From positions 1 to 64,000 of the forward strand of contig JAQSWM010000009.1 in the NCBI GenBank assembly GCA_029266635.1: 64,000 nt of DNA, written 5' to 3'. The position numbers were made by a program, and so were the translations under genes. Shown here in pieces: positions 4,860 through 27,850 of this stretch; the first letter of the stretch is position 1, and each line of letters begins with the position of its first letter. The stretch comes from Sphingobacteriaceae bacterium. GTDB taxonomy: Bacteria > Bacteroidota > Bacteroidia > Sphingobacteriales > Sphingobacteriaceae. A model generated the notes under the pieces. The model worked only from the letters and a program-made list of their open reading frames with translations, did no database searches and was not told where the DNA came from.

Positions 4860-5706
4860 GCCCGTCATCCTGAAGAGCCGCAAGGAGGAAACTTAGTGGT
4901 ACTAACACCAAATTCCCTCTCCGCCAACTGGCGGATTCGGGATGACATGGAAGCTTAAAGCGCTTTGCTAGCTCTCATGTCATCCTGAGGAGGCACGACG
5001 AAGGAAGTTAGTGGTGCGGAACTAAGTTCCCTCTCCGCCAACTGGCGGATTGGGGATGGCAGGGAGCTTAGAGCGCTTTGCTAACCCACATGTCATCCTG
5101 AGGAGGCACGACGAAGGAACTCAGTGGTGCGGAAACTAAGTTCCCTCTCCGCAAACTGGCGGATTCGGGATGACAGGGAAGCTTAAAGCGCTTTGCTAAC
5201 CCCACATGTCATCCTGAGGAGGCACGACGAAGGAACTTACTGGTGGCCGGTACCAAGTTCCCTCTCCGCCAACTGGCGGATTCGGGATGACGTAGAGTTT
5301 AGAGCCTTTGCTAACCCGCATGTCATCCTGAGGAGGCACGACGAAGGAACTTAGTGGTGGCTAGTACCAAGTTCTCTCCTGCGTCGGGATGACAGGGAGC
5401 TTAAGTCGCTTTGCTAACACATGTCATCCCAAGGAGGCACGACGAAGGAAGTTGGTGTCAACGTCATATCGACGAGGTACGAGGAGATATCTTTGGTTAG
5501 AACAACAGACTTCTCTCCGCCAGCCGGCGGATTCGGGATGACAGGGAGCTTAAGTCGCTTTTGCTAGTCCGCATGTCATCCTGAGGAGGCACGACGAATG
5601 AACTTAGTGGTGGCCGGTACCAAGTTCCCTCTCCGCCAACTGGCGTATTCGGGATGACAGGGAGTTAAGCCGCTTTGCTAACCCACATGTCATCCTGAAA
5701 CCCACG
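4860..5706. repeat. Repeat family 1 array, left part
   Basis: This gene-free stretch is tiled with structured units of about 85 bases joined by short linkers, with a period near 111-117 bases. A good unit is 5091-5175. It begins TGTCATCCTGAGGAGGCACG and ends GGGATGACA, so the ends pair. Inside it are a hairpin of GGAACT..AGTTCC type and a second hairpin CCGCCAACTGGCGG. Left arms are seen near 4863, 4979, 5091, 5207, 5321, 5422, 5575 and 5690. The unit at 5422-5542 carries an insertion resembling family 2. The linker often contains AAAGCGCTTTGCTAACCC. Confidence 0.85.
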
Positions 5707-6118
5707 TGTCATCCTGAGGAGGCACGACGAAGGAACTTAGTATTAATAATTCCGTTATTTTAGTTCATGTGGAACTATAACTACTATGTATACATCATTA
5801 CCAATCCTGGCAAGACAGTTTTGTATACCGGAGTTACCAACAACCTCAAAGAACGGCTCTGGCAACATCAGCAGAATCAAGGCACGAAAGGCACATTCGC
5901 TGGTAAGTATCATTGCCACCACCTGCTTTGGTACGAACATCACAGCGACATCAACAATGCCATTGCCAGAGAGAAAGAAATAAAGGGCTGGCGCAGACAA
6001 AAGAAAATCGATCTGATTGAATCCGAGAATCCGAACTGGAACTTTATTGTTTATGAAGGGTAGGATATATAGTACCGGTAGTATCCAACACCAAGTTCCC
6101 TCCTGCGTCGGGATGACA
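5707..6118 (+). mobile_element. Family 1 repeat unit carrying a GIY-YIG gene
   Basis: The left arm (5707-5740, TGTCATCCTGAGGAGG...GGAACTTAG) and the right arm (6091-6118, CCAAGTTCC...GGGATGACA) are the two halves of one family 1 unit. The nuclease ORF at 5767-6063 lies where empty units have only a short loop between GGAACTTAG and CCAAGTTCC. The result looks like a 412-bp gene-bearing element next to its empty relatives. That it is mobile is inference; no target duplication was established. Confidence 0.55.
5767..6063 (+). CDS. Single-domain GIY-YIG endonuclease (copy 1)
   Basis: A 98-residue protein made almost entirely of a GIY-YIG nuclease domain of the UvrC-N-terminal/YhbQ-like type. VYIITN (residues 8-13) and LYTGVT (19-24) are the two strands of the motif. 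LKERLWQH carries the catalytic arginine, and the EKEIKGWRRQKK segment carries the conserved glutamate and a basic patch. This fold cuts DNA using a Tyr/Arg/Glu site and a metal ion. The ATG at 5767 puts the motif at the usual position. It sits in the loop of a family 1 repeat. Its function is unknown; a role in spreading or processing the surrounding repeats is inference. Confidence 0.85.
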   Translation: MWNYNYYVYIITNPGKTVLYTGVTNNLKERLWQHQQNQGTKGTFAGKYHCHHLLWYEHHSDINNAIAREKEIKGWRRQKKIDLIESENPNWNFIVYEG

Positions 6119-6488
6119 GGAAGGTTAAAGCGCTTTGCTAACCCACATGTCATCCTGAGGAGGCACGACGAAGGAACTTGGCAGTACGGAAACTAAGTTC
6201 CCTCTCCGCCTACTGGCGGATTCGGGATGACAGGGAGATTAAAACACACGCTAGCCCATTTGTCATCCTGGGGAGGCACGACGAAGGAACTTAGTGGTGG
6301 CCGGTACCAAGTTCCCTCTCCGCCAACTGGCGTATTCGGGATGACAGGGAGTTAAGCCGCTTTGCTAACCCACATGTCATCCTGACACGACGAAGGAAGT
6401 TGGTGTCAACGTCATATCGACGGTACGAGGAGATATCTTTGGTTAGAACAACAGACTTCTCTCCGCCAGCCGGCGGATCGAAGTGACG
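6119..6488. repeat. Repeat family 1 array, right part, ending in a family 1/2 chimera
   Basis: Family 1 left arms occur near 6149, 6261 and 6375 with right arms ending near 6224 and 6345. The last copy is chimeric. After a family 1 left arm at 6375 it changes at about 6417 to a family 2 left arm (CGTCATATCGACGG) and ends with a family 2 right arm (GGCGGATCGAAGTGACGG, to about 6489). The stretch has no credible CDS. Confidence 0.8.
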
Positions 6489-20231: not shown

Positions 20232-20780
20232 CCCTTCGACTCCCCGCCAGTGGTCGGGCAGGCTGCTCAGGATGACAATCGGCTCCCGCCTTTCCGACGA
20301 GACACGAGGAGGAATCTCGTAACTAAACCCGTCATTTCGAACGAACTGAGAAATCTGTGGGTTAAAGCAGTGACCAACTTATCGGTGAACAACAGACTTC
20401 TCTCCGCCAACCAGCGGATCGAAGTGACGGTAAATTCAAAAGCAACGTCATTTCGACGAGGTAGGAGGAGAAATCTTTTGTTGACAGCACTAAGATCGTC
20501 TCTTGAACGACAGGCCTCTCTCCGCCAACCGGCGGATCGAAGTGACGGTAAATAAAAAGCAACGTCATTTCGACGAAGTATGAGGAGAAATCTTTGTTGA
20601 CAGCACTATAACGTTTGTGAACAACAGACTTCTCTCCGCCAACCGGCGGATCGAAGTGACGGTAAAATTTAAAGAAACGTCATTTCGACGAGGTACGAGG
20701 AGAAATCTTTTGTTGACAGCACTAAGATCGTCTCCTGAACAACAGACTTCTCTCCGCCAACCGGCGATCGAAGTGACGGT
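20232..20780. repeat. Repeat family 2 array, left part
   Basis: Units of about 101 bases start CGTCATTTCGACGAGGTACG and end GGCGGATCGAAGTGACGG, so the ends pair. A good unit is 20678-20778. Inside, AGAAATCTTTTGTT pairs imperfectly with AACAACAGACTTCT, and CCGCCAACCGGCGG makes a hairpin. The first 150 bases contain more divergent copies mixed with CCCTTCGACTCCCCGCC-type arms. ORFs across this stretch repeat the same peptides and are not considered real. Confidence 0.85.
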
Positions 20781-20783
20781 TAC

Positions 20784-21083
20784 CTACCATATCTCAATTT
20801 CTTCCCACAAATCCTTCCATTCAGGATTCGCTGCATTAATCAGAGCTTCTTTCTTATCGCGTCGCCACTTCTTAACTTCTTTTTCGCGGTTTATGGCTTC
20901 TTCAATACTGAAAAAGGTTTCATAATAGATGCATTCGTGAAGGTTGTACTTAGCGGTGAAGCTACGAGGATAAACCCGGTTCCTATGCTCAAGTATGCGG
21001 CTTCGCAAGTCGGAGGTAACGCCAATGTACAGCGTTGTTCTATTCTTGTTTGTGAGGATGTAGATGCAGCCGCCCTTGCCCAT
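20784..21083 (-). CDS. Single-domain GIY-YIG endonuclease (copy 2)
   Basis: A 99-residue GIY-YIG domain protein: IYILTN (7-12), LYIGVT (18-23), LRSRILEH with the catalytic Arg, and REKEVKKWRRDKKEALI with the conserved Glu. It clearly belongs to the same family as the copies at 5.8 and 26.9 kb but the three proteins are strongly diverged. It is set in the family 2 array. Its stop codon is only about 5 bases from the end of one repeat unit, and its start is about 23 bases from the next. Unlike the other two it seems to lie between units rather than in a loop. Function is unknown. Confidence 0.85.
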   Translation of the reverse strand: MGKGGCIYILTNKNRTTLYIGVTSDLRSRILEHRNRVYPRSFTAKYNLHECIYYETFFSIEEAINREKEVKKWRRDKKEALINAANPEWKDLWEEIEIW

Positions 21084-21106
21084 GGTTAAAACTATTTAAA
21101 AGAAAA

Positions 21107-21293
21107 GTCTTTTCGACAAAGGTATGAGGAGAAATCGGTGTCAAGAACCACAGACCTCTCCTGCGTCGAGGTGACGGTAAATTAAAAGCAACGTCATTTC
21201 GACGACCGTAGGAGGAGAAATCTTTTGTTGACAGCACTATAACGTTTGTGAACAACAGACTTCTCTCCGCCAACTGGCGGAGAGAAGTGACGG
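21107..21293. repeat. Repeat family 2 array, right part
   Basis: Two units are seen. The first (21107-21178) is a shortened form from GTCTTTTCGAC to GTCGAGGTGACGG. The second (about 21190-21293) begins CGTCATTTCGACGACCG and ends CGGAGAGAAGTGACGGG. They separate the GIY-YIG gene from the aldehyde oxidoreductase operon. Confidence 0.8.
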
Positions 21294-21314
21294 GTACAAA
21301 AACCGGGTGGCGAT

Positions 21315-26611: not shown

Positions 26612-26850
26612 TGAGTGGCTCAGACTGACAAACATGTTAATTACTGATAAAACGGGATGTCACGCTGAGCGGAGTCGAAGCGCTAACAATTAGACAAATC
26701 AAACAGTCTTCGACTCCGCTCAGACTGACAAACATGTAATTTATTAAGACCTGTGTGTCACGCTGAGCGGAGTCGAAGCGCTAACAATCAGAAACAATCA
26801 ACCAGTCTTCGACTCGCTCAGACTGACAAATAGTAGTTTGATAAAACGTG
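26612..26850. repeat. Repeat family 3 array, left part
   Basis: Units of about 73 bases; the type unit is 26658-26730. It begins TGTCACGCTGAGCGGAGTCG and ends CTCAGACTGACA. A perfect 16-bp stem (CTGAGCGGAGTCGAAG at 26665-26680 with its complement at 26708-26723) encloses a loop of about 27 bases. A second unit covers roughly 26757-26830, and a fragment of a right arm lies at 26612-26630. Confidence 0.85.
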
Positions 26851-27267
26851 TGTCACGCTGAGCAGCCTGCCCCTGGCGGGGAGTCGAAGCATACCTAAAT
26901 AAATTTTGGTATTTTTATGTATGCACAAGTACACGGTTTATATCCTGCTTTGTTCAGACCAGACATATTATACCGGAGTGACGAATGATGTAGACAACAG
27001 ACTTTATGAACATCAAACCGGACTTCATGCAAACAGCTATACTTATTCGCGGCGGCCGGTCAAGCTGGTCTTTGAAGAGCATTTTCACGATATTAACCAA
27101 GCCATAGCTTTTGAAAAGCAGGTAAAAGGCTGGTCAAGGAAGAAGAAAGAGGCTATTATCAATGACAATTGGGAGAAGTTAAAGGAGCTGTCTGTGTGCA
27201 TGAATGATACGCATCATAGCAATAAGGCTTAGCTTAATAACGGTCGTCGACTCCGCTCAGACCGACA
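26851..27267 (+). mobile_element. Family 3 repeat unit carrying a GIY-YIG gene
   Basis: The left arm at 26851-26890 (TGTCACGCTGAGCAGCCTGC, then GGGGAGTCGAAGC) and the right arm at 27244-27267 (TCGTCGACTCCGCTCAGACC, then GACA) are halves of one family 3 unit. The nuclease gene at 26921-27232 fills the loop. This reproduces the arrangement at 5707-6118 with a different repeat sequence. Mobility is inference. Confidence 0.55.
26921..27232 (+). CDS. Single-domain GIY-YIG endonuclease (copy 3)
   Basis: A 103-residue GIY-YIG protein: VYILLC (6-11), YYTGVT (16-21), VDNRLYEH with the catalytic Arg, and FEKQVKGWSRKKKEAII with the conserved Glu. The open frame extends five codons upstream from a TTG, but the ATG at 26921 gives the family N-terminus. 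The C-terminal 15 residues (polar, with three His) are an extra tail not seen in the other two copies. It lies within a family 3 repeat unit. Likely a DNA-cutting enzyme; target and role unknown. Confidence 0.85.
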   Translation: MHKYTVYILLCSDQTYYTGVTNDVDNRLYEHQTGLHANSYTYSRRPVKLVFEEHFHDINQAIAFEKQVKGWSRKKKEAIINDNWEKLKELSVCMNDTHHSNKA

Positions 27268-27850
27268 AACTCACATTAATATATGTATGTCACGCTGAGG
27301 GAGTCGAAGCGCTAAACAACCAGAGAGTATCAACCAGTCTTCGACTCCGCTCAGACTGATATTCGACTCGATCAAGACTGACAAATATGTAATTATTAAT
27401 ACCTGTGTGTCACGCTGAGCGGAGTCGAAGCGCTAAACAATTAGAGAGTATCAAACAGTCTTCGACTCCGCTCAGACTGACAAACCCACATTAATATATG
27501 TATGTCACGCTGAGCGGAGTCGAAGGGCTAAACAACCAGAGTATCAACCAGTCTTCGACTCCGCTCAGACTGACAGAAATGTAATTACATAAATGTAATT
27601 ATTTGATAACGGGATGTCACGCTGAGCAGCTTGCCCGACCACAGGCGGGGAGTCGAAGGGCTAAACAACCAGAGAGTATCAACCAGTCTTCGACTCCGCT
27701 CAGACTGACAAATAATAGTTTAAAACGTATGTCACGCTGAGGGAGTCGAAGCGCTAAACAACCAGAGACAACCAGTCTTCGACTCCGCTCAGACTGACAA
27801 GCGGCTCCGCTCAGACTGACATATGACTCCGCTTAGACTCACAATCGAGT
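27268..27850. repeat. Repeat family 3 array, right part
   Basis: At least six family 3 units or part-units follow the GIY-YIG gene. Left arms occur near 27289, 27408, 27502, 27616 and 27730. One left arm (27616) has the insertion GCAGCTTGCCCGACCACAGGCGGG in place of GCG, the same type of variant arm as at 26851. The unit loops share the words GCTAAACAACCAGAG and ATCAACCAGT. No CDS is credible from 27268 to 27982. Confidence 0.85.

Follow-up and report, generated by a model that had tools for sequence, protein, structure and literature searches.

How a gene for a small nuclease comes to lie in the loop of a repeated palindrome, with gene-less copies of that palindrome on both sides, is the question raised by positions 5707-6118 of the DNA analyzed here. 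This stretch (hereafter “the window”) comprises 64,000 nt, positions 1-64,000 of the forward strand of contig JAQSWM010000009.1, and belongs to the Sphingobacteriaceae bacterium assembly GCA_029266635.1. The gene encodes a complete single-domain GIY-YIG nuclease of 98 amino acids and is embedded in an array of ca. 113-bp imperfect palindromes (family 1) that spans 4863-6485, with a phosphoenolpyruvate carboxykinase (PEPCK) gene on one side and a GNAT-like gene on the other. In a preliminary description, the locus was read as a full-length element amid gene-less derivatives, comparable in logic to repetitive extragenic palindromes (REPs and REPINs) and their RAYT transposases, with an unrelated enzyme. 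The finding is real and wider than that description supposed: two further genes of the same nuclease family, overlooked there, lie in the window (Table 1), and the pairing of nuclease and repeat recurs in several bacterial phyla. We judge it probable that each such locus is an autonomous REP-type element composed of a single-domain GIY-YIG nuclease gene and the palindromic repeats recognized by its product, and that the gene-less dimers are non-autonomous derivatives.

As had been described, the gene at 5707-6118 replaces the loop of a unit and is bracketed by the two half-units, and gene-less family 1 units tile both sides. The spacing of the units is ca. 113 bp. The earlier claim that the units share the same two halves stood in part: both halves are present, but not every copy has matching stem halves (left TCCT, right TCCC), one unit contains a nested dimer of a second repeat family, and one is truncated and fused to sequence of that family. 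A stub of a further left half was noted at ca. 5688-5698. The family 1 left half was found 9 times in the window with up to 3 mismatches allowed (0 expected from shuffles) and 17 times in the genome, the other 8 copies being on other contigs. All of the dispersed copies that were read lack the gene, and the inverted right half is present in most (L363 shows none; L358 was read in part). The window array and these dispersed copies together bear out the picture of a full-length element amid gene-less derivatives. The family-invariant residues of the nuclease (Y9, Y20, G22, R30, H34, E69 and K70 in the family alignment) are all kept in the 98-residue protein. The repeat families are also combined at 5422-5543 and 6373-6485, where a unit of one interrupts, or is joined to, a unit of another, and a 57-bp piece of family 2 is identical at 5476-5532 and 6422-6478.

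The three GIY-YIG paralogues lie within 22 kb of the window, each in a different repeat family, and a TGTC or CGTC tag is present in all three families. Two of the three genes occupy the loop of a unit; the other, at 20784-21083, lies between units.

For a wider comparison, 187 distinct family genes were assembled from the same genome, its relatives, a sample of the phylum, and 80 named, Bacteroidota-rich loci. An unbiased count of 7-mers in their 250-bp flanks yielded 281 occurrences of TGTCATT (19 expected); this word, TTGTCAT and their relatives were enriched ca. 15-fold, with GTCA-containing words the most enriched. The sole stem register clearly above background after GTC was A plus four bases, slid registers being near background, and the template near the nuclease genes was therefore taken as GTC-ANNNN-GA..GA-N'N'N'N'T-CT. 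Strict matches to this template were sought within 300 bp of each gene and in control windows 1.2 kb away. A hairpin was found near 153 of the 187 genes (82%) and on both sides of 119, compared to 8 of 168 controls (5%); the expectation that repeats would bound the gene in most genomes was thus confirmed. The left and right flanks formed inverted repeats for 58% of the genes, vs. 8% for mismatched flanks and 3% for control open reading frames. When the nearest hairpins of the 119 genes were oriented, 43 genes were in the loop, 32 were between units, and 44 had hairpins in direct orientation. Placement in the loop, the arrangement noted in the preliminary description, was accordingly rejected as a universal rule. 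In the same genomes, the remaining GIY-YIG genes, some of them also single-domain, were almost entirely free of such repeats, which supports the specificity of the association.

The pairing of the stems was assessed on 214 distinct hairpins that were picked by the constant letters alone. All four stem positions were Watson-Crick pairs in 79% of them, vs. 10.7% with shuffled partners. A compensated stem is seen in the window itself, where the nested family 2 copy has ATATC/GATAT and the usual form is ATTTC/GAAAT; the family 3 stem begins with AC, not AT. Genome G015 carries the stems TGCT, TCCT, TGGT and TGTT on one loop type. The dimers of this genome (L279-L307, odd numbers) are nested, with an outer TTGC pair enclosing an inner one, the halves of which usually differ in stem (TCCT with TGCT or TGGT); no family nuclease was found there.

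Similar nucleases have more similar stem codes. On the nuclease tree, 49 code changes were required, whereas 300 label shuffles gave a mean of 85 and a minimum of 74. Because host relatedness could explain this match, paralogues within one genome were also compared. Fourteen same-genome pairs had different codes, and 11 were informative; in all 11, the codes matched those of each paralogue's own homologues elsewhere and not the sibling's (p=0.001, an approximate value because some pairs share a genome). By these sequence comparisons, recognition of each repeat by its cognate nuclease is well supported.

Family nucleases and matching tagged palindromes were found together in Rhizobium, Sinorhizobium, Sphingobium, Azospirillum, Planktothrix, Spirosoma, Aeromonas and N. 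gonorrhoeae. The palindromes were present weakly at the Photobacterium locus, and a family homologue was also identified in Novosphingobium, where the comparison covered the gene. The N. gonorrhoeae homologue (39% identity, profile E=2.4e-31) adjoins dRS3-type CGTC repeats. Hairpin abundance was determined in 248 genomes of the phylum, with a reversed-pattern control that had a mean of 0.8. The median was 8 where the nuclease is present and 2 where it is absent (Mann-Whitney U test, p=1.3e-10; Spearman 0.47). The possibility, raised at the outset, that repeats might be equally abundant without the nuclease was thus contradicted by the medians, but two nuclease-free genomes, considered below, are rich in hairpins.

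Within genera, the nuclease loci are mostly non-syntenic; in Mucilaginibacter, 3 of 210 homologue pairs were syntenic on both sides. Homologues are thus mostly not at fixed loci; fixed loci without flanking repeats had been named in the preliminary description as adverse to it. The empty sites in sister strains that it had anticipated were found in Azospirillum. In A. lipoferum 4B, two tagged dimers bracket a nuclease gene between sufB and sufC; A. ramasamyi, A. oryzae and sp. B510, which are 95-97% identical to it over the matching sufB/sufC stretches, have a short spacer with neither repeat nor gene. The repeats and the gene therefore most likely arrived together. Of the two marks of a classical insertion sequence or miniature inverted-repeat transposable element, inverted repeats are present; the other, a target-site duplication, is taken up below. 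In Shinella, a family gene lies between one inverted repeat pair with a different stem at the same suf operon position; the sufB-sufC gap is thus occupied in two distant alpha-Proteobacteria (L346, Azospirillum; L353, Shinella) by nucleases of the family whose repeats differ, and it may be a site that is targeted repeatedly. For the window locus, the stretch downstream of PEPCK was compared in 29 relatives: none has the gene, and 28 have no such hairpin (1.5 kb searched, less at contig ends); in the remaining one, L310, a single isolated hairpin-like match lies 1.3 kb away. The PEPCK neighborhood is too different in the relatives for a strict empty site to be claimed, and the comparison shows absence alone.

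Further signs of turnover were noted in the nuclease family. Genomes have up to 16 paralogues, and copies L042, G108 and G249 have internal stops. Identical tandem nuclease genes occur, with their repeats, at L049 (G037:C5) and L164 (G146:C3), ca. 540-600 bp apart; these look like local multiplication of whole units.

The repeats themselves have a published counterpart. The CGTC-tagged REP superfamily of Di Nocera, De Gregorio and Rocco (2013) includes Neisseria dRS3 and Rickettsia RPE-4/6, and its members “apparently lack a dedicated transposase”; CGTC repeats were not found to flank any Y1 transposase gene (PMC3733652). Neisseria CGTC-1 was equated with dRS3 (PMC3733652), which has the form ATTCCC(N8)GGGAAT and of which the meningococcus carries almost 700 copies (PMC3898611). 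A. lipoferum, S. meliloti and Neisseria were named as carriers (PMC3733652), and in the records of all three the family nuclease adjoins CGTC-type repeats. Judged by their features, the repeats described here fit this superfamily: they have the unpaired CGTC/TGTC tag, a stem starting AT..AT, inverted dimers, heterodimers with different stems, an intergenic location, and an occurrence in Bacteroidetes and alpha-Proteobacteria, as reported for CGTC REPs. They differ from the published account in the attached GIY-YIG nuclease. In addition, the window families have 4-5 bp stems with GA..GA and longer loops, whereas CGTC REPs have 8-9 bp stems and 4-5 nt loops; longer stems, as in the published repeats, are found at the Azospirillum, Sphingobium and Neisseria loci (Proteobacteria). 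The remark that no described system of this kind was known is therefore only partly right, on account of these repeats and of the published Neisseria nuclease Ssn with its repeated target, considered below; no paper that joins CGTC repeats to a GIY-YIG gene was found in a literature search that many journals fell outside.

The likeness to REP/REPIN-RAYT (TnpA_REP) systems, which the preliminary description had drawn, was upheld in that the enzyme gene is flanked by tagged hairpins, gene-less inverted dimers occur elsewhere, and the enzyme clade matches the repeat type. The enzymes are unrelated: RAYT is an HuH Y1 transposase associated with a GTAG tag, while the present family is GIY-YIG (PF01541) with the tag GTC(A). 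The analogy holds for the anatomy and for the matching of enzyme to repeat, is hypothetical as regards movement, and has precedents. Among GIY-YIG proteins, the UPF0213/YhbQ-like single-domain protein (PDB 1zg2) matches the nuclease (phmmer E=0.027) and has the same domain, but, as stated above, GIY-YIG genes outside the family in the genomes compared are almost devoid of repeats. The nearest published relative is presumably Ssn of Neisseria, reportedly a site-specific, single-stranded GIY-YIG nuclease, described in 2025, with a repeated target (NTS) in hundreds of copies and said to modulate natural transformation; the N. gonorrhoeae family homologue may be this characterized enzyme. Ssn is likewise a single-domain GIY-YIG enzyme with a many-copy target, and a Neisseria homologue falls within the present family; the loci described here also feature several paralogues with their own repeat codes, a gene in the loop, and empty sites, which are not known to have been the subject of that study.

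Table 1. Repeat units and nuclease genes in the window
Feature	Coordinates	Strand	Remarks
Family 1 unit without gene	4978..5061	+	
Family 1 unit without gene	5091..5175	+	
Family 1 unit without gene	5207..5292	+	folds as single-stranded DNA, z=-3.5
Family 1 unit without gene	5321..5394	+	
Family 1 unit with nested family 2 dimer (5463-5533)	5422..5543	+	dimer stem ATATC/GATAT
Family 1 unit without gene	5574..5659	+	
Left half-unit	5707..5741	+	TGTCATCCTGAGGAGGCACGACGAAGGAACTTAGT; GTCA tag, stem ATCCT/AGGAa; directly upstream of nuclease gene
GIY-YIG nuclease gene, 98 aa, complete	5767..6063	+	PF01541 E=2.7e-16; replaces loop of unit
Right half-unit, inverted	6090..6118	+	ACCAAGTTCCCTCCTGCGTCGGGATGACA; ACCAAGTTCC..GGGATGACA
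Family 1 unit without gene	6148..6232	+	
Family 1 unit without gene	6261..6346	+	
Truncated family 1 unit fused to family 2 sequence	6373..6485	+	array end before GNAT gene
Family 2 repeats, one side of second nuclease gene	20430..20780	+	CGTCATTTCGACGAGG..AGAAATC / AGACTTCTCTCCGCC..ATCGAAGTGACGG
Second GIY-YIG nuclease, same family, between family 2 units	20784..21083	-	
Family 2 repeats, other side of second nuclease gene	21104..21295	+	
Gene-less family 3 units, upstream	26658-26835		
Family 3 left half-unit, upstream of third nuclease gene	26851..26889	+	TGTCACGCTGAG..GGAGTCGAAG
Third GIY-YIG nuclease, in loop of family 3 unit	26921..27232	+	
Family 3 right half-unit	27244..27267	+	TCGTCGACTCCGCTCAGACCGACA
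Gene-less family 3 units, downstream	27288..27800	+	one dimer folds as single-stranded DNA, z=-6.7

Other readings of the locus were rejected. An Rfam scan of the whole window returned a single tRNA, with no intron and no other RNA, and an RNA element was discarded on that basis. A defense system was dismissed (no PADLOC match), as was a phage origin (a homologue in 0 of 50,697 phage records). Separately, another single-domain GIY-YIG subfamily was observed directly at tRNA 3' ends (L356, 2033-2278 and 2378-2620; L357, 2014-2223; L080, ca. 5415-5685), with a duplicated tRNA 3' tail behind it in L356 and L080; it resembles a mini-element with tRNA genes as its target.

In the mechanism that we propose, each half-repeat consists of an unpaired GTC(A) tag and then a small hairpin, whose variable stem (N4/N4') is closed by the conserved GA..GA. 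The stem would act as the recognition code for the cognate nuclease, and paralogous nucleases of one genome would serve different repeat families. The repeat would become single-stranded (on the lagging strand, in repair, or in uptake), a state that cleavage presumably requires, and the nuclease would nick its cognate hairpin; host copying or recombination would then spread, delete or tandemly multiply units, sometimes with the gene included. The gene-less inverted dimers, both local and genome-wide, would be REPIN-like derivatives mobilized in trans. Several points weigh against an autonomous element of this type. GIY-YIG enzymes hydrolyze DNA and are not known to rejoin it, so mobilization would need host enzymes. 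By standard DNA energies, the short stems alone are not stable, unlike whole dimers, which fold well; energetically stable half-hairpins are thus not supported, and the case for the half-hairpin consequently rests on covariation, not energy. No target-site duplication was resolved, the Azospirillum junction being too diverged to show one. The gene is in the loop in just about a third of cases. Joint travel of repeats and nuclease could account for part of the match between code and clade, and some of the paralogue pairs are not independent of one another. Finally, genomes G015 (252 hairpins) and G294 (146) have no single-domain GIY-YIG gene; their GIY-YIG proteins are all long (UvrC-like or fused).

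Three other explanations were weighed against the same evidence. The nuclease might be a homing parasite that cuts pre-existing REP dimers in the loop and is copied in, the repeats being a target made and kept by something else. GIY-YIG is a classical fold of homing enzymes, the family weakly matches the group I intron endonuclease TIGR01453, and two of the three window genes lie in a dimer loop; moreover, Planktothrix PCC7805 and NIES-204 have a REP array without the gene where No.66 has it, and repeat-rich genomes without the nuclease exist. We nevertheless consider homing unlikely, as the Azospirillum sister sites have no repeats at all, the loop position is a minority arrangement, and the codes follow the nuclease clade, which homing alone would produce only if each clade were tied to one target. 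Up to 16 paralogues per genome, internal stops, identical tandem copies and non-syntenic positions look mobile, and they make it rather improbable that the nuclease is a host-domesticated, Ssn-like single-strand nuclease that controls DNA incorporation or uptake near repeats, which would be kept as binding sites and not mobilized by it. Control of this kind has reportedly been observed in Neisseria; the N. gonorrhoeae homologue beside dRS3-type CGTC repeats and the retained catalytic residues would accord with it. That another enzyme, e.g. a Y1 REP transposase, mobilizes the repeats, with the nuclease as a passenger or as a safeguard against cruciforms through the cutting of extruded hairpins, appears highly improbable. 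CGTC repeats do occur without the nuclease in some genomes, and Y1 transposase subclasses are present in Bacteroidetes (PMC6006769), but Di Nocera et al. found no gene for a Y1 transposase with CGTC repeats at its flanks (PMC3733652), the number of repeats varies with the nuclease, and the codes follow its clade.

CGTC repeats are found in numerous bacteria, and their defining description did not settle which enzyme, if any, moves them; the GIY-YIG family provides a specific candidate, whose distribution, position and code all match. A broader proposition is about as likely as not: in bacteria generally, nucleases of this family would serve CGTC-tagged REPs as dedicated enzymes and form a second REP system, independent of RAYT and driven by a hydrolytic nuclease, in which the short stem is a code read by each nuclease clade and the nuclease-repeat unit spreads via single-stranded intermediates and host repair. 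Many natural nuclease-repeat pairs with different codes are now at hand for testing. If the code is real, these proteins would constitute a family of small, hairpin-reading nucleases with a specificity that could be predictable from sequence.
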